Shown here: positions 36,624 through 44,730 of the stretch, piece after piece
Numbering within the stretch: position 1 is the stretch's first letter
How the letters are laid out: each line of letters begins with the position of its first letter
From: Christensenella massiliensis
GTDB taxonomy: Bacteria > Bacillota > Clostridia > Christensenellales > Christensenellaceae
DNA length: 64,000 nt
Direction of reading: 5' to 3'
Assembly: GCA_900155415.1 (NCBI GenBank)
Contig: LT700187.1
Span: 744,001 to 808,000 of the forward strand
Translations under genes and position numbers: made by a program
The notes under the pieces: generated by a model
Seen by the model: the letters and a program-made list of their open reading frames with translations, nothing else
The model's database searches: none
Told to the model about the DNA's origin: nothing

Positions 36624-37340
36624 CTACACCAGCTTCCCTCTCAGCCGGCCGATTGCACCGGCGGAAAGCCCGGCCGCTTTCAGATAGCCCTCTGCCGTAC
36701 CGTATTCCGCGGCGATATGCTCCATCAGCTTCCGCATATACTCCGGCTTCGAGCAAAATACGTGATCCGGTACTTTCACGCCCGCCTTTTCGAGCATCCC
36801 GCGCTGTTTTTCAAACGTCTCTTTCATATATTGCTCGGAAACGGCATAGTCTGCAAGCACGATCCCGTCCGGCACGCCCGCAAGCTTCAAAAGCAGCATA
36901 GTGATCACGCCCGTGCGGTCCTTGCCTGCCGTGCAGTGATAGAGCGCCGCTCCCTCCGTCTCTGCAAGGCAGGCGAATATCTCTTTCAGGCCGTCCTTGC
37001 TGTTTTCCACAAGGCCGATATACATGTTTCCCATATCGTCCGGCACTTTCCCCAGCATCGCCTCCGACTGGATATGGTCGAGAAGCGGGACGTGCAGCTT
37101 TTTCATCTGCTTTTTATCGAGGCGGTCCGGGTGCAGGAACGCTTCGTTGTTTCCGCGCACGTCGATCACCAGCCGCACGCCGTAGCTGTCCAAATAGTCT
37201 TCGTCCTCCTTTGTCAGCCCGTGCAGGCTGTCTCCGCGCAGGAACGCCTTAAATTTTGTCGTTCCGCCGTTTGCCGGATATCCTCCGAGGTCCCGTACAT
37301 TATGCGCGCCCGCGAGGGGGAGCGGCCTTGATATATTCAT
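36624..37340 (-). CDS. Tyrosine-protein phosphatase family protein
   Basis: The ATG at 37340 follows AAAGGTTTGAAT; a TTG two codons earlier is less likely. The 238-residue protein has the Y_phosphatase3 pattern: AHNVRDLGGYPANGG near the start and the P-loop HCTAGKDRTG (Cys-X5-Arg) near residue 135. Family members dephosphorylate phosphotyrosine or phosphoinositides, and bacterial ones can act on host or own proteins. No signal peptide is seen, so it is likely cytoplasmic. Its substrate is unknown. It converges on the protease fusion and diverges from DUF1294. Confidence 0.9.
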   Translation of the reverse strand: MNISRPLPLAGAHNVRDLGGYPANGGTTKFKAFLRGDSLHGLTKEDEDYLDSYGVRLVIDVRGNNEAFLHPDRLDKKQMKKLHVPLLDHIQSEAMLGKVPDDMGNMYIGLVENSKDGLKEIFACLAETEGAALYHCTAGKDRTGVITMLLLKLAGVPDGIVLADYAVSEQYMKETFEKQRGMLEKAGVKVPDHVFCSKPEYMRKLMEHIAAEYGTAEGYLKAAGLSAGAIGRLRGKLV

Positions 37341-37362
37341 ATTCAAACCTTTCTTTCCATGC

Positions 37363-37669: not shown

Positions 37670-38374
37670 TTAATTGTTCCTCCTCGACAGCACGAGCAGC
37701 CGCAGGAAGGAAAGGAACGAGGCGAGCATCGCCGCCACATACGTCATGGCTGCCGCGTTCAGCATACGCTTTGCCTCTGTCTGCTCCTGCGCGGTCAGCA
37801 CGCCGGACGCGGAGATATTCGCCATTGCCCGCTTACTGGCATTGAACTCCACAGGCAGGGTGACGACCTGAAAGATCACGACCGCAAAATACACCCATGC
37901 CCCGATATCCACCAGCACTCCCATGCCGGGCGTGCGCGCGGAAAACAGGATGCCGATCAGAATCAGCGGAAACGCAAGCTTCGTCGCAAAATTCACTACG
38001 GGAACGATCGCATTCCGCACCCGCATGGGGCCGTACTTCTTTTCCTTTTGCAGCACATGCCCGCATTCGTGCGCGGCAATGGAGACCGCGGCGATCGAAT
38101 GCTTTGCATACACGCCCTCCGAGAGGTTCACCGTCTGGCTGCGCGGGTCGAAATGATCCGTCATGTTTCCGGGAACGCTGCGTACCGTCACACCCGTAAC
38201 GCCGTTCTGCCGCAGCATCGTCTGCGCAAATTCCCGTCCGGATACGCCGCTTTGCGCGGGAATCGCCGAATATTTCTTATATGCGCTGCTCACCCTCGCC
38301 TGCGCCCAGATCGTTATGATGAACGCCGGGATCAGGATCAGCCACGTCCAATCGAGCCACAATGGAAAAAACAT
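37670..38374 (-). CDS. YugP-type membrane zinc metallopeptidase
   Basis: The 234-residue protein has an N-terminal membrane helix, the zinc-binding motif AAHECGHVLQ near residue 102, and two to three further helices. The pattern SGVSGREFAQTMLRQNGV and DHFDPRSQTVNLSEGVY (key DHFDPRSQTVNLS) is that of B. subtilis YugP (PF04298). It should be a membrane-embedded protease; its substrates are unknown. The upstream region carries a perfect 9-1-9 palindrome over the probable promoter, suggesting repression by a Fur-family or similar dimer. The start follows GGGAGATAAC. Confidence 0.9.
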   Translation of the reverse strand: MFFPLWLDWTWLILIPAFIITIWAQARVSSAYKKYSAIPAQSGVSGREFAQTMLRQNGVTGVTVRSVPGNMTDHFDPRSQTVNLSEGVYAKHSIAAVSIAAHECGHVLQKEKKYGPMRVRNAIVPVVNFATKLAFPLILIGILFSARTPGMGVLVDIGAWVYFAVVIFQVVTLPVEFNASKRAMANISASGVLTAQEQTEAKRMLNAAAMTYVAAMLASFLSFLRLLVLSRRNN

Positions 38375-38531: not shown

Positions 38532-39320
38532 CTACAGAATGGAGAGCGGCACTACCGATGCAACGCTCGTTTCTCCCACCTCCAGACGGTCGATATATAC
38601 CTCCACCTCAAACGACCTCTCCATGTTTTCACAGCTGATGACTTCCGCGCTCTCTCCAAAAATATAGCTTCCGGACTTATCCAGCAAAAGCGCCTGATCG
38701 GAAATTTTGAGCGCATGGTCTGGATAGTGCGTGTTGAACACGCAGGATATCCCCTGCTCCGCCGCCAGTCTTTGCATGATGTCCAGTATGATCAGCTGGT
38801 TTTTAAAATCGAGGTTCGATTCCGGCTCGTCCAGCACAAGCATGGACGGCTGCGTCGTAAGCGCCCGCGCAATGAGGATCATCTGCAGCTCGCCGCCGCT
38901 CATCTGCGAACAGAGCTTGCCGCAAAGGTGCGGCACCCCCACGAGCGCGATCGCCTCCCGCGCGAGCTCAAGATCCTTTTTTTTCGGCTGCTGCATCATG
39001 CCAAGGTGTGCGCAGCGCCCAAGCACCACCATTTCCTCAGCAGTATACATCAGCGCGTTTCCCTTTGCCTGCGGCACATACGCGATCTTTTTCCATAGCT
39101 CCCGCACCGGGATATGATGGATATTTTTCCCGTCGATACGGCTCTCCCCTTTTTTCCAGTGAAGCAGCCCCATCATGCACCGCAGAAGCGTCGTTTTGCC
39201 CACACCGTTCGGACCGAGCACAGAAAGTATTTTCCCCTCCGGCACACGGAAGCTGAGGTCGCGCAGCACCTCGCGCCCGTCTCCGTAGCCAAAACATCCG
39301 TGTACCACTTCAAATATCAT
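38532..39320 (-). CDS. ABC importer ATPase (FecE/BtuD type)
   Basis: The 262-residue ATPase has Walker A GPNGVGKTT near residue 36, signature MSGGELQM, Walker B MLVLDEPESNLD and the H-loop THYPDHAL. It falls in the class serving siderophore, heme and cobalamin importers. Its ATG overlaps the permease stop by 4 bp. It is the last gene of the six-gene operon that begins with the NifH-like gene at 44730. It would energise uptake of the ligand delivered by the lipoprotein encoded at 40340-41521. Confidence 0.92.
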   Translation of the reverse strand: MIFEVVHGCFGYGDGREVLRDLSFRVPEGKILSVLGPNGVGKTTLLRCMMGLLHWKKGESRIDGKNIHHIPVRELWKKIAYVPQAKGNALMYTAEEMVVLGRCAHLGMMQQPKKKDLELAREAIALVGVPHLCGKLCSQMSGGELQMILIARALTTQPSMLVLDEPESNLDFKNQLIILDIMQRLAAEQGISCVFNTHYPDHALKISDQALLLDKSGSYIFGESAEVISCENMERSFEVEVYIDRLEVGETSVASVVPLSIL

Positions 39321-40336
39321 AAATTAGACCCTCCCGTCTTTTTGAGCAGGATAATAAAGAACGGCGCGCCGATCACCGACGTCAAAATAGAGATCGGTAT
39401 CTCCGCGGCAGTCGCGCTGCGCGCCACCGTATCCATAATCAGCAAAAATACCGCGCCGAGGCTGATGCTTGCCGGAACGATATTCTGGTTGTTGCTGCCA
39501 AAGAGCATCCGGCAGATATGGGGGATCAAAAGCCCTACCCAGCCGACCTGCCCGCACATAGACACGCAGGACGCCGTGATCATTGTTGCCGCAAGCGCCA
39601 CGATCACCCGCATCATGCGGATATTCACACCCATGGTCTTTGCTTCATCCTCGCTGAGCATCAGAACATTGAGCTTCCAGCGCAGAGCGAAAATGACTGC
39701 GATCCCTGCAACAATAAACGGCGCGCCCAGCGCAAGGCTGCTGAAGCTGGTGTTCGCAAGGCTGCCCATCAGCCAATAGGTGATGGCCGGAAGCTGCGAT
39801 TCCGTATCCGCAATGAACTTGATGATGGATATCCCCGCTTCAAACAGCGACGCGATGACCATACCCGAAAGAATGACCATCACCGTGCTCGCCCCGCTCT
39901 TCTGACGGCTGATGATATAGGTCATCAGAACGGCGACAAAGCCGACCGCAAGCGCGGAGACCTGCACCGTGATGAGTCCCATACCCAGCAAAAGGGCGAG
40001 GGCGGCTCCAAAGCTGGAGCCTGCCGCTACGCCCAAAGTATCCGGCGTTGCCAGCGCATTGGAAAAGATGCTCTGGAACGCCGCGCCGGATACTGCCAGT
40101 CCCGCCCCGCACAGCACCGCGAGAATGATCCGCGGGAGCCGTACGCTGATCAGCACGCTGTATATCTGCGGATCGACGCTTTCCGGCCCGTGCACCGCGA
40201 TCTCAAACAGGTTCGTCACGATCTCGCCGGGGCTCATAGACATGCGCCCGATCCCCATGCAGACGATCGCCGTCACAATGGGCAGAAGGACCAATATGAT
40301 ATTTCTGAAAACATGATTCTGTTTCAGACTGGCCAT
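39317..40336 (-). CDS. FecCD-family ABC importer permease
   Basis: The 339-residue protein has about ten membrane segments and FecCD landmarks: RLPRIILAVLCGAGLAVSGAAFQ (key RLPRIILAVLCGAGL), GVAAGSSFGAALAL, and CGQVGWVGLLIPHICRMLFG near residue 255. This family imports Fe-siderophores, heme, cobalamin and related metal chelates. It would pair as a homodimer with the adjacent ATPase. The gene lies 3 bp after the binding-protein gene. The exact ligand is not encoded in recognisable motifs. Confidence 0.92.
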   Translation of the reverse strand: MASLKQNHVFRNIILVLLPIVTAIVCMGIGRMSMSPGEIVTNLFEIAVHGPESVDPQIYSVLISVRLPRIILAVLCGAGLAVSGAAFQSIFSNALATPDTLGVAAGSSFGAALALLLGMGLITVQVSALAVGFVAVLMTYIISRQKSGASTVMVILSGMVIASLFEAGISIIKFIADTESQLPAITYWLMGSLANTSFSSLALGAPFIVAGIAVIFALRWKLNVLMLSEDEAKTMGVNIRMMRVIVALAATMITASCVSMCGQVGWVGLLIPHICRMLFGSNNQNIVPASISLGAVFLLIMDTVARSATAAEIPISILTSVIGAPFFIILLKKTGGSNL

Positions 40337-40339
40337 GGT

Positions 40340-41521
40340 TTAGAATGCCGCCGCAGATTCCGGCGTCGGGGCGAGGATCAGGGCCACCTGTTCGTCCGTG
40401 AGCTCAAGGCCATAGAATTCGCTGTAATAATCCTTGATCTCCTGTTCGATGTCAAGGTCTTCGAATAATTCAGGATACATCTGCTTTGCCATCCACTGAA
40501 GCATCAGCGGGGAATCGGAGGACGGCGGGAACCAGTAATACATCCCCAGCGGGATCTTATAGACCCGTTTGTTCTGTACGGCCTTGATGCCGCTCCAGTC
40601 ATGTCCGTCCGCAGCCGTGTTATTATAGAGGTCCTCAGGCGTATAGGCCGAGAAGCTGTTGAGGAACAATACATCCGGGTTCCACTCATAGATCTGTTCC
40701 ATATTGACTTCGCCTGTAAACGCGCCTACATCATAGCCGAGGTTCTTGCCGCCGGTGGAGGTGATCCAGTAATTTGCAAAGCTGGTGCCGCCCGCCGTGA
40801 TCGCGGATTCATTATAGTTAGAGAGGATCAGCGTATTCGGATAATCCTCCTCCGGCACTTCCGCGAGCCTGTCGGCAACGGTCTGCTGCACCTCCTCGCC
40901 GTATGCGATGATGCCGTCCGCCCTGTCGGACGGTCCCATGACCTCCTTCAGGAGCTCGATCCATGCGTTGAAGGTATCGATGGTGTTGTAATCGTCAAAA
41001 AGCGTGGTCGAGAAGCCGACCGCCGGAATGCCCGCGGCGGAAAGCGCATCGTAGTTCGCCGTTACGTCCGCATTGTAGAACACGACGTCCGGGTCGAGCT
41101 TAATGAGCTCTTCCATATTGATCTCGTCTCCGCTCGCCCAGCCGTCCGGCAGGTCTTTCAGGCCCGGGTACGCTTCCCCGAGAATGGAATTCACCGCAGC
41201 GTTCTTGGAATCCGGATGGATGCCGACCAGCCCGTCCGCCGAGCCCATGAACATGCAGTATACGGACGTAAGCGGCGTTAGCCCGCCGATCGCCACGCGC
41301 TCTACCTTTTCGGGCAGCACGACCTCATGGCCCGCGTGGTCGGTAATAGTCCTCGTTCCCTCCGCTTCCTCTGAGGCTGAGGCCTCCGCGCTTTCAGAGG
41401 GCTCTGCGGACGCGCTCTCCGAAGGCTCCTCGGAGACCGCAGGCTCCTGCGCCGCGCATGCCGTGAGCATGAGAGACAAACACATCAGGACAGCAAGCAA
41501 GATCGCTATACTTTTCTTCAT
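40340..41521 (-). CDS. ABC importer substrate-binding lipoprotein
   Basis: The 393-residue lipoprotein has a lipobox LTAC (Cys22) and a Ser/Glu-rich linker to about 55. The periplasmic-binding fold of the BtuF/FhuD class follows: ITDHAGHEVVLPEKVERVAI, then LIKLDPDVVFYNADV and WNPDVLFLNSFSAY. It should capture a metal chelate or corrinoid-like ligand outside the membrane. An SD AGAGGTAAAGAA precedes the ATG. It is the fourth gene of the operon, 45 bp after the NifK-like subunit. The tie to nitrogenase-like genes is the main clue to the ligand. Confidence 0.9.
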   Translation of the reverse strand: MKKSIAILLAVLMCLSLMLTACAAQEPAVSEEPSESASAEPSESAEASASEEAEGTRTITDHAGHEVVLPEKVERVAIGGLTPLTSVYCMFMGSADGLVGIHPDSKNAAVNSILGEAYPGLKDLPDGWASGDEINMEELIKLDPDVVFYNADVTANYDALSAAGIPAVGFSTTLFDDYNTIDTFNAWIELLKEVMGPSDRADGIIAYGEEVQQTVADRLAEVPEEDYPNTLILSNYNESAITAGGTSFANYWITSTGGKNLGYDVGAFTGEVNMEQIYEWNPDVLFLNSFSAYTPEDLYNNTAADGHDWSGIKAVQNKRVYKIPLGMYYWFPPSSDSPLMLQWMAKQMYPELFEDLDIEQEIKDYYSEFYGLELTDEQVALILAPTPESAAAF

Positions 41522-41566
41522 TTCTTTACCTCTTTTCTTTAAAATATTGTAAGGATAGGTTCATCC

Positions 41567-42715
41567 TTAAATGCGTTTTACAAATTCTTCTATATGCTCC
41601 CCGATAAACGGGATACATTCATTCCAATGCAGCTTGCTCGACACCGCCGGGCTTGGAAAATCCACGAATTTCGCCCGGCTGTCCGGCGCCAGCAGCCTCC
41701 GGAACATTGGGTCGCCGATCACAAGCTCATATCCACCGTTCATAACGGCTGCGATCTCCGCCTCTCCCGAAGCATGCAGCCCGTCCGGGTGCATAAGCTC
41801 CACATTGGGCGTAAAGATGCTTACAGCCGCAGCGTTTTCCAATCCATGGTCCTGCACGAGGCAGCGCCCGATGGCTTCTGAGATCACCCTCTCTCCTAAG
41901 ATCAGCGCCTGTTTTCCCGGGCGCGGCGGAGCGGCCATGCGGTTTTTACCGTCCCGGCAAGTCTGCTCAAGCAGGCGGAGAAGCTCCTCCGTCGGCTTTT
42001 TTCCGACGGGCAGGCCGACCACGTAAGGGATCCCCAGCCGCTCATACATATCGTTTGCCGCGGCAAGCCCGCTCTGCGAAACGACTATGTTCGCCTGTGC
42101 CCGGCCGCATGTCATGATCTCTTCCAGCGACGCGCCCATCGCAAGGGATGTGCCCACCGTATAGCCCGCCTGTTCAAAGCACGAGCAGACCGCTTCCGCG
42201 TTCCCGTTCGTATAAAAATCAAGCGGGGTCAATCCAAGCAAATTGATTCGCTTCTCTTCCGTCTCTTCCTTTTTCCCAAAGCGCCTTACGAGCGCGAGAA
42301 AGGCGTCTGAAGCGCCGCTGTCGTAAAGGCGCAGCCCTGTCGTCGAAAATCCGAAGGCGGGCAGTCCGGTACGCTGCTCAAGCTCGTCTGCGATCCCCTG
42401 AAAATCGGTGCCGATCACCATGGGCACAGGGCTTCCGGTCACGCAGATGAATTTCGGCAGCATCTCCGCCGCCGCTTCCATAATGCGCCCGATCAGCTTT
42501 TCATCGTCGCCCAATATCGCGTCGATCTGCCGGAGCACCGAGCAGTATACCCCGCTTGAGGAGCCGTACCAGCGCGGCTCGTCGAAGCCCGTATAGTTTC
42601 CCGTGCAGCCGCACGCATCGTGTATCACGATCATTCCGCCCAGCTCGAACAGGGCCGAGCATACGCCTGAATAGTCCGGCGCAAAGGGAGGAAGGTTCAA
42701 AGATATCTTTTCCAT
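41567..42715 (-). CDS. Nitrogenase component 1-like subunit (NifK/NifN/BchB-like)
   Basis: The 382-residue protein belongs to the nitrogenase component 1 superfamily. Its start, DYSGVCSALFELGGMIVIHDACGCTGNYTG (key HDACGCTGNY, Cys35 and Cys37), is followed by Cys58 in GVYCSVLR and by Cys91 in FICVTGSPVPMVIGTD, the three positions used for the Fe-S cluster at the subunit interface. DAILGDDEKLI matches the family GG.E-type turn. It is shorter than NifK (about 520). It lies 1 bp after the NifD-like gene. It should form a heteromer with it, receiving electrons from the NifH-like ATPase. Substrate unknown. Confidence 0.85.
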   Translation of the reverse strand: MEKISLNLPPFAPDYSGVCSALFELGGMIVIHDACGCTGNYTGFDEPRWYGSSSGVYCSVLRQIDAILGDDEKLIGRIMEAAAEMLPKFICVTGSPVPMVIGTDFQGIADELEQRTGLPAFGFSTTGLRLYDSGASDAFLALVRRFGKKEETEEKRINLLGLTPLDFYTNGNAEAVCSCFEQAGYTVGTSLAMGASLEEIMTCGRAQANIVVSQSGLAAANDMYERLGIPYVVGLPVGKKPTEELLRLLEQTCRDGKNRMAAPPRPGKQALILGERVISEAIGRCLVQDHGLENAAAVSIFTPNVELMHPDGLHASGEAEIAAVMNGGYELVIGDPMFRRLLAPDSRAKFVDFPSPAVSSKLHWNECIPFIGEHIEEFVKRI

Positions 42716-42716
42716 G

Positions 42717-43967
42717 TCACACCACCAATCCGCTGTCTTTCACAAGCTGTTCCAGATCATATTCGTGTCCGCACTCCGCACGCATCTTTTCCATCATGGA
42801 AACGACGCCCGCATAGCCGTAATGCTCGCCGTCCGCCGCAATTGGGACCACATGAGGCGAGCCTGTGAAATAGGCCGCTTCAAATCCGATGCACAGGTGC
42901 TCTCTGCTGCCCGCGATCTGCCCCGGCATGGAAAAATGCTCGGGCTGAACGATTTTGACCTCGCGGTGGTTTTTTAAAATCCATTCCATGTCACCGCGCT
43001 CCACGGGCAGGCATTCCGACGTATAAACAGTATCTACCCGAAAGCCGTATTCCAGCAGCAGGCGCGCCAGTCCAAAGGGGCGGTAGGTCGCCGCGTAATC
43101 GATGGAAACGGGCCGCCCGGCAAGGGCTTTGAGCGTCTCGAATATTTTTTCCTCCGCCCGCTGCCGCTCCCGCGAAAAATCCGGCGCCGGAATGCCAAGA
43201 CTGCCGCACAGCTCCGCCGCGCCGCGCTCGATCTCATCAAAGGAATAGCTGACCGGAAAATATCCATAGCCGATCCCTTTGCGCAGCTTCATCTGCTTGG
43301 CCGCATAAAGCGCGAGCGGGGAGGTGATGATGTTGAACCGACTTTTTCCCATCTCTTGGAACGCGTCGAACGTTTGGTATTGGCTGATGTGCCGTGTCTC
43401 GATCCCGTTCTGCTTCAGCCAGCCGATCAACTCGTTGTCCGGCTCGATGGCAAGATTGCTGCCGATGAAATTGACCGCGTCGTCTTTTTTCTCCGCCTCC
43501 CCGGTGAGGGAGTAGATCGTATCCTGTATGGTAACGGCCGGCGGCGCGGGACCATCCCCCGTGATCGGGTTCATAAAGCATACGATGGTCTTCGTTTCGG
43601 GATATTTTTCGTTCAGCGGCGCGAGGAACGCGTCGTGGTCCGTCCCGAGCAGGTTATCGATACACGTCACGAAGATCATGAACACGCGCGGACGGGGCTC
43701 CATTTTTCCGAGCAGCCCGTCTACGCTCTCAAGGATCAGCGCTTCATAGCTTCCCGAAACGATGTCCGCCTCGCGGATCGGGAGCCACGAGATACGGTCG
43801 TCGATCTTAAGCTCCATGGAAGAGAGCATGATATGCCGCATGCATGCCGACGGTCCCACAAAAAGCTGATAGCTCTCCGGCACCTGCATCGCCATGCGCA
43901 CGATGCTCCATCCGCCGCGCGCGGGCGAGGAATATTGAAGCGTTCTTACAAAGCTGCATTCAGACAT
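42717..43967 (-). CDS. Nitrogenase component 1-like subunit (NifD/NifE/BchN-like)
   Basis: The 416-residue protein has the superfamily layout: [14 protein letters not shown] (Cys42), then [18 protein letters not shown] (Cys102), the position where NifD/NifK have T-x-C...GDD. No cysteine lies between them, so the middle Fe-S ligand found in NifD is missing. A second Rossmann-like domain includes [22 protein letters not shown] ribosome-binding site, AAGGAGGG, lies inside the end of the NifH-like gene, which overlaps by 8 bp. It would pair with the subunit encoded at 41567-42715. It is too short and too different to be a genuine MoFe-protein subunit. Confidence 0.85.
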
Positions 43968-44730
43968 CGGCTCTCCCTCCTTCGCATATCTTCAGCACAC
44001 GGTCCGCAAGCTCCAGATATTCGCGGGCCATACTGCTGTCCGGGAATGCCTCCACCACCGTTTTTCCCTGCTCCTCCGCGCGCTGGACGTCGCCGCTGCG
44101 CGGTATCGTCTTTACGACCTGCGTGCCCGCCTCCCGCGCGAAGTCTTCCACCAGCTCTTCCTCGCGTTCCACGTTGCGCGCGTTGAGTATCACGCCGCCG
44201 AACGATGCGTAACCCCGGTTTTTGAAATTCCCGATGGCAAGGGCGATGTTCGCCGCCGCATAAAGCGCCATCTTTTCGCCCGACGTCACGACGAAAACCT
44301 CATCCGCGTAGCCGCCGCGTATCGGCATGGCAAAGCCGCCGCATACCACGTCGCCGAGAACGTCATACAAAACGATGTCCGGCTTGAATCTCTCATACGC
44401 TTTGAGCTCCTCCAATTTTTCGAACGCCGTGATGATCCCCCGGCCGGCACAGCCGATCCCCGGGGTAGGGCCGCCCGCTTCCACGCACAGAATGCCGCGA
44501 TAGCCCTCTTCTACGATGTCCTCCAATATGACGCCGTCCCCTTTTTCGCGCAGCGCATCCAGCACCGTGCGCGGCTTTCTGCCGCCCAATAGGTTCTGCG
44601 TGGAATCCGCCTTCGGGTCGCACCCGATCTGCATCACCCGCAGCCCCTTTTGCGCGAACGCGGCCGACAGGTTGGAGGCGGTCGTCGATTTCCCGATCCC
44701 GCCTTTTCCATATAAGGCAATTTTTATCAT
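43960..44730 (-). CDS. NifH/BchL-like Fe-protein ATPase
   Basis: The 256-residue protein has the P-loop [15 protein letters not shown] (residues 7-21), CDPKADST, and the two cluster cysteines in GIGCAGRGI (Cys94) and [16 protein letters not shown] (Cys130). As a homodimer it should bridge one 4Fe-4S cluster and deliver low-potential electrons with ATP hydrolysis. It is the first gene of the operon, and its products are two component 1-like subunits and an ABC importer. No nifB, nifE, nifN or nifV is present, so nitrogen fixation is not supported. Tetrapyrrole, F430-type or sulfur-compound reductases are the closest known alternatives. Confidence 0.92.

Follow-up and report, generated by a model that had tools for sequence, protein, structure and literature searches.

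Why should a nitrogenase-like reductase be encoded in one operon with an ATP-binding cassette (ABC) importer, and what might the two handle together? The question is raised by a block of six packed genes on the minus strand (positions 38532-44730) of a 64,000-nucleotide stretch of the Christensenella massiliensis genome, hereafter the window (contig LT700187.1, positions 744,001 to 808,000). Comparison with other genomes indicates that the operon represents a new lineage of nitrogenase-like reductases linked to an importer, with relatives that mostly retain the importer (clade A) and others that are tied to [FeFe]-hydrogenase maturation (clade B). The second group is the stronger discovery, as it represents a probable HydG-independent route to the H-cluster; this tie, as well as the accompanying loss of HydG, is visible only with other genomes at hand and thus lies beyond the initial annotation, which had been made from the single sequence.

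Gene content and conservation of the importer link

In transcription order, the open reading frames encode H, D, K, a lipoprotein, a permease and an ATPase, with intergenic spacing of -8 to 45 bases, and the Pfam matches of all six proteins exceed the gathering cut-offs, which confirms the composition read in the initial annotation. H (43960..44730, 256 amino acids) is a NifH-like [4Fe-4S] ATPase, the reductase component (Fer4_NifH, 323 bits; P-loop GKGGIGKST), and both of the cluster cysteines attributed to it could be located, namely C94 in the GCAGRGI motif and C130 in the second conserved motif. No other full NifH is encoded in the genome, the two other P-loop matches being partial (38 and 43 profile positions). 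D (42717..43967, 416 amino acids) and K (41567..42715, 382 amino acids) are component-1-like subunits (Oxidored_nitro, 88 and 110 bits, respectively). The substrate-binding protein (SBP; 40340..41521; Peripla_BP_2, 62 bits) carries a lipobox Cys22 and belongs to the fold class of MolA, YiuA and Helicobacter pylori CeuE; together with the adjacent FecCD-type permease (39317..40336; PF01032, 272 bits) and ATPase (38532..39320, 262 amino acids; ABC_tran, 103 bits), it constitutes by Pfam a type II (FecCD) ABC importer. The claim that no cofactor-assembly genes accompany the operon holds for its six genes, none of which is NifB- or NifEN-like, the rest of the genome not having been searched for NifB.

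To place the operon among its relatives, one genome per species was scanned for D across 84,980 species, which yielded 461 stretches; the best 80 (L096-L175) were kept and split by best match to the window D or to a clade B D, resulting in 24 clade A and 56 clade B loci. Importer genes adjoin H-D-K in 22 of the 24 clade A loci, and the exact order H-D-K-SBP-permease-ATPase recurs in 19; those devoid of an importer are L104, a contig of 3.5 kb, and L105. The proposed pairing of a nitrogenase-like reductase with an importer is thus kept in homologues, contrary to the refuting case named in the initial annotation, in which homologues would never adjoin the ABC genes, and the importer link extends to the distant relatives L055 and L082. 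The hosts of clade A include Christensenella hongkongensis, Petroclostridium, Clostridium sporosphaeroides, Faecalispora, Anaerobacterium, Ruminococcus flavefaciens, Tissierella praeacuta, Treponema lecithinolyticum and Synergistaceae, and in Treponema saccharophilum the entire six-gene operon resides on the 424 kb plasmid pTS1 (L176), where its products are labelled 'nitrogenase component 1' and 'nitrogenase iron protein NifH'. Because related H-D-K-importer operons are known in genomes of Bacillota, Synergistota and Spirochaetota, the arrangement is far from chance. Beyond the six genes, no gene family is common to more than three of 23 clade A neighbourhoods. Within the genus of the window, D is present in three of six genomes, and no viral relatives of D were found.

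Several accessory genes were observed around clade A operons. On pTS1, an extra, divergent SBP gene lies upstream, and a second SBP gene also adjoins the operon in L098, L100, L101 and L118. Just upstream of H in Tissierella praeacuta (L041:5922-8223; L041 is the same locus as L115) there are genes for a CobW-like GTPase, an unusual ABC ATPase and an SBP_bac_6 protein, a set that recurs whole or in part in L123, L111 and L103. Downstream of the window operon, the minus strand encodes a Zn_peptidase_2 protein (37670-38374) and a Y_phosphatase3 protein (36624-37346), and the Pfam scan gave no sign that either is part of the cassette.

A nitrogenase-like complex with a distinct set of candidate cluster ligands

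The window proteins are not assigned by score to a curated nitrogenase-type family. H falls below the NCBIfam cut-offs of nifH (346.8 against 394.35), CfbC (342.4 against 402) and BchL (209.6 against 345.15), whereas D and K yield only weak scores with NifE, NifD and BchB, the BchB score of K being 55.5 against a cut-off of 490.35. In a tree of 27 rows, D and K each form a six-row clade (100/100) outside NifD/NifE, NifK, BchN, BchB and the two NifB/NifX-linked Nfl sets (those of L177 and L179), although its root and deep order are unsure. The initial annotation had proposed a tree as a check on whether the subunits nest within a known group; they do not nest with Nif, Bch or the NifB/NifX-linked Nfl proteins, and the Mar, Isr and Cfb sequences are absent from this tree.

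The cysteines counted in the initial annotation, three in one subunit and two in the other, do exist near the cluster sites (C42, C102 and C130 of D; C19 and C37 of K), but only some are kept across homologues: D C42 and C102 in 25 of 25 rows and K C37 in 25 of 26, alongside K D14 in all 26. When aligned with NifD, NifK and NifE of Nitratidesulfovibrio and with BchN and BchB of Sulfitobacter, and with the P-cluster sites numbered as in Azotobacter, D C42 and C102 correspond to the NifD C88 and C154 sites and K C37 to the NifK C95 site; a Gly stands in D at the NifD C62 site, the NifK C70 site coincides with or adjoins K D14, and a Pro occurs at the NifK C153 site, so that Cys occupies three of the six sites in the window D and K. 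The column of the FeMo-cofactor Cys (NifD C275 site; C274 of the reference NifD_Dv) is not among the columns with Cys in at least five of the 27 rows.

The cluster of the dark-operative protochlorophyllide oxidoreductase (DPOR; BchL-BchNB) is held by three Cys of BchN and by Asp36 of BchB, which are visible in the alignment as C29, C54, C115 and D36. Judging from the aligned positions, the window complex, likewise composed of a NifH-like ATPase and two component-1-like subunits, appears to follow a similar recipe of three Cys and a candidate Asp, but with the ligands shared out differently, two Cys coming from D and one Cys plus the Asp from K. These candidates point to a DPOR-like cluster and to the lack of a FeMo-type site. 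The AlphaFold model of K (predicted local distance difference test, pLDDT, 87) has DPOR chains as its nearest solved folds (9buo_D, Z 34.1, root-mean-square deviation 3.3 over 360 residues; 8vqh_B, a BchB chain, Z 33.9), followed by a Mar chain (29.7) and NifEN chains (about 29); K accordingly has a component-1 fold, a likeness of fold and not of function. Both the ligand map and the model agree with the earlier suggestion that the interface cluster is unlike the P-cluster of the MoFe protein and closer to the clusters of tetrapyrrole reductases.

The operon also differs from the systems that it most resembles. In contrast to DPOR, it is devoid of chlorophyll genes and is tied to an importer. 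CfbCD, a small nitrogenase-like reductase of Ni-sirohydrochlorin a,c-diamide, is approached by H, which scores nearly the same with CfbC as with NifH (342 and 347 bits), but the window encodes two distinct component-1 subunits; no CfbD model is listed among the matches of D or K at E 1e-3, the presence of CfbD in the model library not having been checked. Membership in DPOR or CfbCD was rejected on the cut-offs, the ligand pattern and the number of subunits. MarHDK and IsrHDK (Group IV, with sulfur substrates) share the H-D-K composition. Isr cooperates with the ABC importer of its substrate, SsuCAB, and both Mar and Isr have a radical S-adenosylmethionine (SAM) B gene (PMC11423573), while Mar holds P- and [Fe8S9C]-clusters (PMC12552129). 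The window importer is of a different type, the radical SAM B gene sought as a mark of MarHDK, IsrHDK and NfaHDK does not occur among the six genes, and no such family is recurrent in the 23 clade A neighbourhoods.

A distant H-D-K lineage was also observed beside FecCD importers (L082:7863-14016, L055:7401-12640 and L076:8043-16445). In this lineage, D carries three Cys and K is without Cys at the sites in question, a BchN-like pattern, and the host genomes comprise two with HydG (G107 and G227) and one without (G296).

A related clade tied to [FeFe]-hydrogenase maturation

Clade B is monophyletic on D, with support of 98 in a quick tree and 100/98 in a careful one. At example loci, its neighbours include HydE (539 bits, cut-off 255), HydF (548, cut-off 326) and the putative hydrogenase regulator TM1266 (113, cut-off 61), the HydE and HydF of L048 being NCBIfam equivalogs, as well as HypD, HypF, a HypE-like AIRS protein and HypC, the latter identified by BLAST and motif. 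At least one such neighbour of hydrogenase-maturation type (HydE, HydF, TM1266, HypC-F) is present in 51 of the 56 clade B loci as opposed to none of the 24 clade A loci, and HydE or HydF in 36 of the 56. The tie extends to gene fusion: a fused TM1266-like domain forms the C-terminal part of 15 out of 23 clade B importer ATPases and of none out of 22 from clade A (21 loci), and Pfam PF21699 detects it in four more (L038, L046, L047 and L048; E 1e-14 to 3e-20). No Pfam match to this domain is listed for the window ATPase, unlike many of its clade B homologues, and its length of 262 amino acids, set against that of the fused proteins, also speaks for its absence.

Clade B loci come in two main forms that never coincide. 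The importer is found in 28 of the 56 and HypCDEF or second-set HDK genes in 22, both together in none; the remaining six (L119, L122, L125, L129, L139 and L175) carry neither. On the careful D tree, in which these six loci were unlabelled and L038, L049, L052, L055 and 15 of 20 second-set D rows were dropped, the HypCDEF label changes four times, at least two of the changes being forced, which indicates that the importer and HypCDEF with its second H-D-K set were swapped more than once. A count of six changes on the quick tree was set aside, since the six loci with neither type carried default labels there. The HypCDEF form is exemplified by Clostridium carboxidivorans P7 (L169), with the order H2-D2-K2-HypF-C-D-E-H1-D1-K1 and no HydG over the cut-off.

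In the canonical HydEFG system, HydE and HydF act with HydG, whereas in clade B they adjoin a nitrogenase-like complex with either an importer or HypCDEF; the window clade, A, is unlinked to Hyd genes. HypCDEF makes the Fe(CN)2CO unit in the known [NiFe]-hydrogenase system (PMC9431212), but in clade B it occurs together with HDK genes, and HypD is present in ten genomes of the class in which no [NiFe] large subunit reaches E 1e-10.

A locus from the family of the window (L038, genome G014) has in a row a HydF truncated at the end of the contig, the ATPase with its TM1266 fusion, the permease, SBP, K, D and H; this genome, 79% complete, has no HydG over the cut-off.

Clade B tracks the absence of HydG

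The distribution of HydG was assessed in two sets of genomes. The first was a census of 391 genomes of the class of the window (Clostridia, judging by members that include C. luticellarii and Tissierella), with D homologues called at E 1e-15 and HydG by the profile TIGR03955. In total, 21 genomes have a D homologue, 237 HydG, 261 HydF (259 over the curated cut-off) and 369 the hydrogenase domain PF02906; HydG without a HydF match occurs in five. D is present in 15 of the 29 genomes with HydF but no HydG, compared with 5 of the 232 that have both (G000, G003, G195, G227 and G285; Fisher 1e-12, relatedness ignored), and in one (G157) of the 130 without HydF. In each of the 15 HydG-less genomes with D and HydF, the hydrogenase domain is matched at E 4.1e-94 or better. 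HypD is found in ten of them, always among the HDK genes, and it is in these ten that no [NiFe] large subunit was detected; the remaining five have the importer form.

The exchange can be followed within genera. Among the ten genomes of genus g65, six have D and no HydG, three HydG and no D (G102, G257 and G345), and one (G276) neither, this last also lacking a HydF match; in g148, two genomes of the former kind stand against one of the latter (G352), and in g202 one against one (G340). None of the five genus mates with HydG has HypD. Weak nitrogenase-type profile matches do occur in G352 and G257.

The second set comprised the genomes of 50 of the 80 named loci, chosen before their HydG results, 30 mostly short-contig loci being left out. 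HydF is present in 31 of the 32 clade B genomes, 29 of which lack HydG, and in 13 of the 18 clade A genomes, 12 of which have HydG (Fisher 5e-8 for clade B against clade A, relatedness ignored). This set is not wholly independent, because at least four of its genomes (L097, L112, L115 and L142) are also in the census, and for L116, the same genome as G001, the HydG result had already been seen. A hidden, divergent HydG was considered and rejected for the sub-threshold matches examined: these six (G455, G334, G452, G226, G448 and G371) are ThiH proteins (NCBIfam 496-535 bits, cut-off 380), which align to the first 382 of the 470 HydG positions, and at E 1e-40 no HydG-like gene apart from ThiH was found in C. 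carboxidivorans. From the adjacency of the clade B HDK genes to HydE/HydF, the gene fusion, the mutual exclusion of importer and HypCDEF and the tracking of HydG absence, we infer that, in clade B, the task of HydG has probably been taken over by the nitrogenase-like complex.

Of the 14 genomes with HydF and neither HydG nor D, eight are less than 90% complete and six near-complete. At E 1e-8, profiles gave HDK-type matches in three of the 14 (G074 and, among the six near-complete ones, G296 and G384), but also in 9 of 34 HydG-positive controls, one of which, G107, has a divergent H-D-K-SBP-permease-ATPase operon (that of L082); the matches in the three genomes therefore do not count as evidence that HDK replaces HydG there. 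In the HydG-less G176 (L080:8047-12298), TM1266-HydE-HydF is followed 11 bases on by a gene for a B12-binding radical SAM protein (KedN5/BchE-like), which is perhaps another HydG substitute; no homologue of it was found in the other loci examined. At least 108 of the 391 genomes have PF02906 but no HydF match, for instance G022, G061 and G089 of the order of the window, which may partly reflect limited HydF scoring; among them are genomes of about 0.9 Mb from this order with no HydF or HydG matches.

Role of the window operon and a proposed mechanism

The window operon itself does not belong to the presumed HydG-replacing clade: its D falls outside clade B, no Hyd gene lies beside it, and the genome encodes elsewhere a HydE-HydG-HydF operon (HydG, 710 bits) and six hydrogenase-domain matches. 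Since HydG is present here, and both HydF and HydG are missing from 5 of the 18 clade A genomes, the operon is no HydG substitute. The genome also has a separate HypF-C-D-E set (L092:6019-10530), near which its sole [NiFe] large-subunit match covers an N-terminal part of 70 positions.

What the importer brings in was approached through the SBP. Its model (pLDDT 86) is closest in fold to an uncharacterised Veillonella protein (Z 38.6), followed by MolA (molybdate; 31.1), an iron-transporter protein of Eubacterium eligens (31.1), YiuA (iron-siderophore; 28.1) and H. pylori CeuE (27.5), one entry of which contains a Ni-His complex, whereas heme binders (about 22) and BtuF (20.4) score lower. Because the fold is closer to MolA, YiuA and CeuE than to heme or B12 binders, the model hints at a small metal complex or anion as cargo, rather than at a tetrapyrrole, although a shared fold names no ligand. 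The window SBP is 36-45% identical to the aligned clade B SBPs and 43-53% to clade A SBPs outside its genus, and 26 residues are invariant over 35 rows, which suggests one class of cargo for both clades. No riboswitch naming the cargo was detected at the window operon. In seven clade A loci searched, the single riboswitch is of the FMN type and lies about 3 kb beyond the ATPase of L096; seven clade B loci gave a yjdF/azaaromatic riboswitch directly after the SBP gene of an importer-type locus (L138:13585-13684), and L138 also has a weak cobalamin riboswitch match about 8 kb from the D gene.

On balance, we favour the reading that the six genes constitute a self-contained import-and-reduce cassette and that the same module was recruited in clade B to [FeFe]-hydrogenase maturation. 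The lipoprotein, permease and ATPase would import a small metal complex or anion, and the NifH-like dimer would hand low-potential electrons, driven by ATP, to a (DK)2 complex. Where D meets K, this complex would hold one [4Fe-4S]-type cluster, liganded by C42 and C102 of D, C37 of K and probably D14 of K, and it would reduce the imported cargo without a FeMo-type cofactor. It is from the observed gene content, linkage, lineage and aligned ligand positions that we infer this cluster type, the direction of electron flow and the cargo as substrate. In clade B, HDK would act with HydE and HydF in the place of HydG as the source of an Fe-CO/CN building block, the importer having apparently been exchanged more than once for HypCDEF and a second H-D-K set. 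The chemistry that the two clades most likely share would be the reductive handling of a small species of iron or cyano/carbonyl-iron. In clade B, HypCDEF and the second HDK set can stand in for the importer, and HypCDEF makes a cyano/carbonyl iron unit; on these grounds the cargo might, more speculatively, be a small cyano- or carbonyl-iron compound, either imported or replaced by the product of HypCDEF and the second HDK, in which case the Christensenella operon would be a salvage form that is not tied to hydrogenase. We know of no description of such a compound as a nutrient.

Several observations weigh against this reading. The placement of the window varies between trees, as its group is sister to clade B in the quick one (92) but lies inside a weak clade A in the careful one (87/61), which is the tree adopted here. 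The importer link has exceptions, as L105 retains H-D-K with no importer alongside, and so does G003 of the same genus as the window (L036:7842-11083, 83-89% identical). Nor is the link to hydrogenases uniform: HydG is kept not only by the window genome but also by the five genus mates searched, the five clade A genomes mentioned above dispense with both HydF and HydG, so that what the window operon makes does not simply serve the H-cluster, and in clade B, L170 and L172 keep HydG while L171 is devoid of both HydF and HydG. Four near-complete genomes with HydF and no HydG (G176, G293, G299 and G350) lack H-D-K even by profile, which implies that HydG loss has other solutions. HydF absences in the census are unsure because only four candidates were scored per genome, often out of 20-40, and the excess of PF02906 (369 genomes) over HydF matches (261) means that the domain alone is no proof of a matured hydrogenase. 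Finally, a 2022 survey of acetogenic Clostridium describes atypical HydG-like radical SAM genes of about 450 amino acids, which may have a part in this, in all species but C. autoethanogenum (PMC9431212).

Alternative explanations

The most durable competitor of the import-and-reduce reading is reductive assimilation of iron or another metal, in which an imported iron chelate would be stripped by HDK and, in clade B, the iron passed on to HydE/HydF. The proximity of the SBP model to iron-siderophore and Ni-His binders and to MolA, the FecCD permease and the 5 of 18 clade A hosts without HydF are all in keeping with it. HydG, however, supplies the CO and CN ligands of the H-cluster and not iron only, yet clade B mostly lacks HydG, and its importer alternates, never in one locus, with HypCDEF, a system of ligand synthesis; we therefore consider simple metal assimilation possible but rather unlikely.

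Two further explanations seem improbable. The importer might bring in a metal for the HDK cofactor, with HDK acting on an internal substrate, which was the second option of the initial annotation and would suit the MolA-like fold of the SBP; there is, however, no family-wide Cys at the FeMo-cofactor Cys site and no NifB/NifEN-like gene in the operon, and the importer is absent from the HypCDEF form. The window copy could, on the other hand, be a redundant second supplier for the [FeFe]-hydrogenases of its own cell, beside HydG. The genome does have HydE, HydF, HydG and the six hydrogenase-domain matches, and G014 of the same family combines HDK, the TM1266-fused ATPase and HydF with no HydG over the cut-off; such a role is nevertheless hard to reconcile with the HydF-less clade A genomes and with the lack of Hyd genes in all 24 clade A loci.

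Import of a tetrapyrrole or corrinoid and its reduction in the fashion of DPOR or CfbCD, the cargo class first proposed, has in its favour the DPOR chains nearest to the K model and BtuC as the best NCBIfam match of the permease, the latter far under the cut-off (198.6 against 461). We regard it as very unlikely, given that heme and B12 binders rank below MolA, YiuA and CeuE against the SBP model, that the window has no riboswitch and that the setting of clade B is hydrogenase maturation; as evidence against the proposed cargo, the first two of these are weak. An ordinary or alternative nitrogenase, as the database labels of the Treponema homologues would have it, can be practically dismissed on the three of six P-cluster sites without Cys, the lack of NifE, NifN and NifB in the operon and the score of H below the nifH equivalog cut-off.

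Implications

In open-licence PubMed Central literature, we found no paper linking a nitrogenase-like complex to HydG loss or to this importer and no description of the system, in agreement with the impression of the initial annotation that the reaction is undescribed. The puzzle on the hydrogenase side, by contrast, has been noticed. In the 2022 survey, HydE and HydF but no HydG were identified in five of eight acetogenic Clostridium; HypCDEF without HypA/B was reported in five species, and C. carboxidivorans was found to have two HypCDE sets, the second unexplained and said to merit further investigation (PMC9431212). Apart from the HydG-like genes mentioned above, the survey offers as an explanation that HydE and HydF use CO and CN from elsewhere, and it raises the question of unknown ligand mechanisms. 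A study of hydrogen in the gut describes nitrogenase genes as widely encoded and minimally transcribed (PMC12578642), a count that may or may not include HDK genes.

The clade B cluster provides a testable answer for the HydG-less C. carboxidivorans. More generally, the results suggest which function might be tested in a nitrogenase-like family that is so far uncharacterised, show that 'nitrogenase' labels on such genes are unsafe and, in the case of the Christensenella operon, point to a small compound, yet unnamed, that is taken up by gut anaerobes. If the proposed replacement is true, a part of the assembly of the iron cofactor of the H-cluster, so far ascribed to HydG, would be carried out by relatives of nitrogenase.

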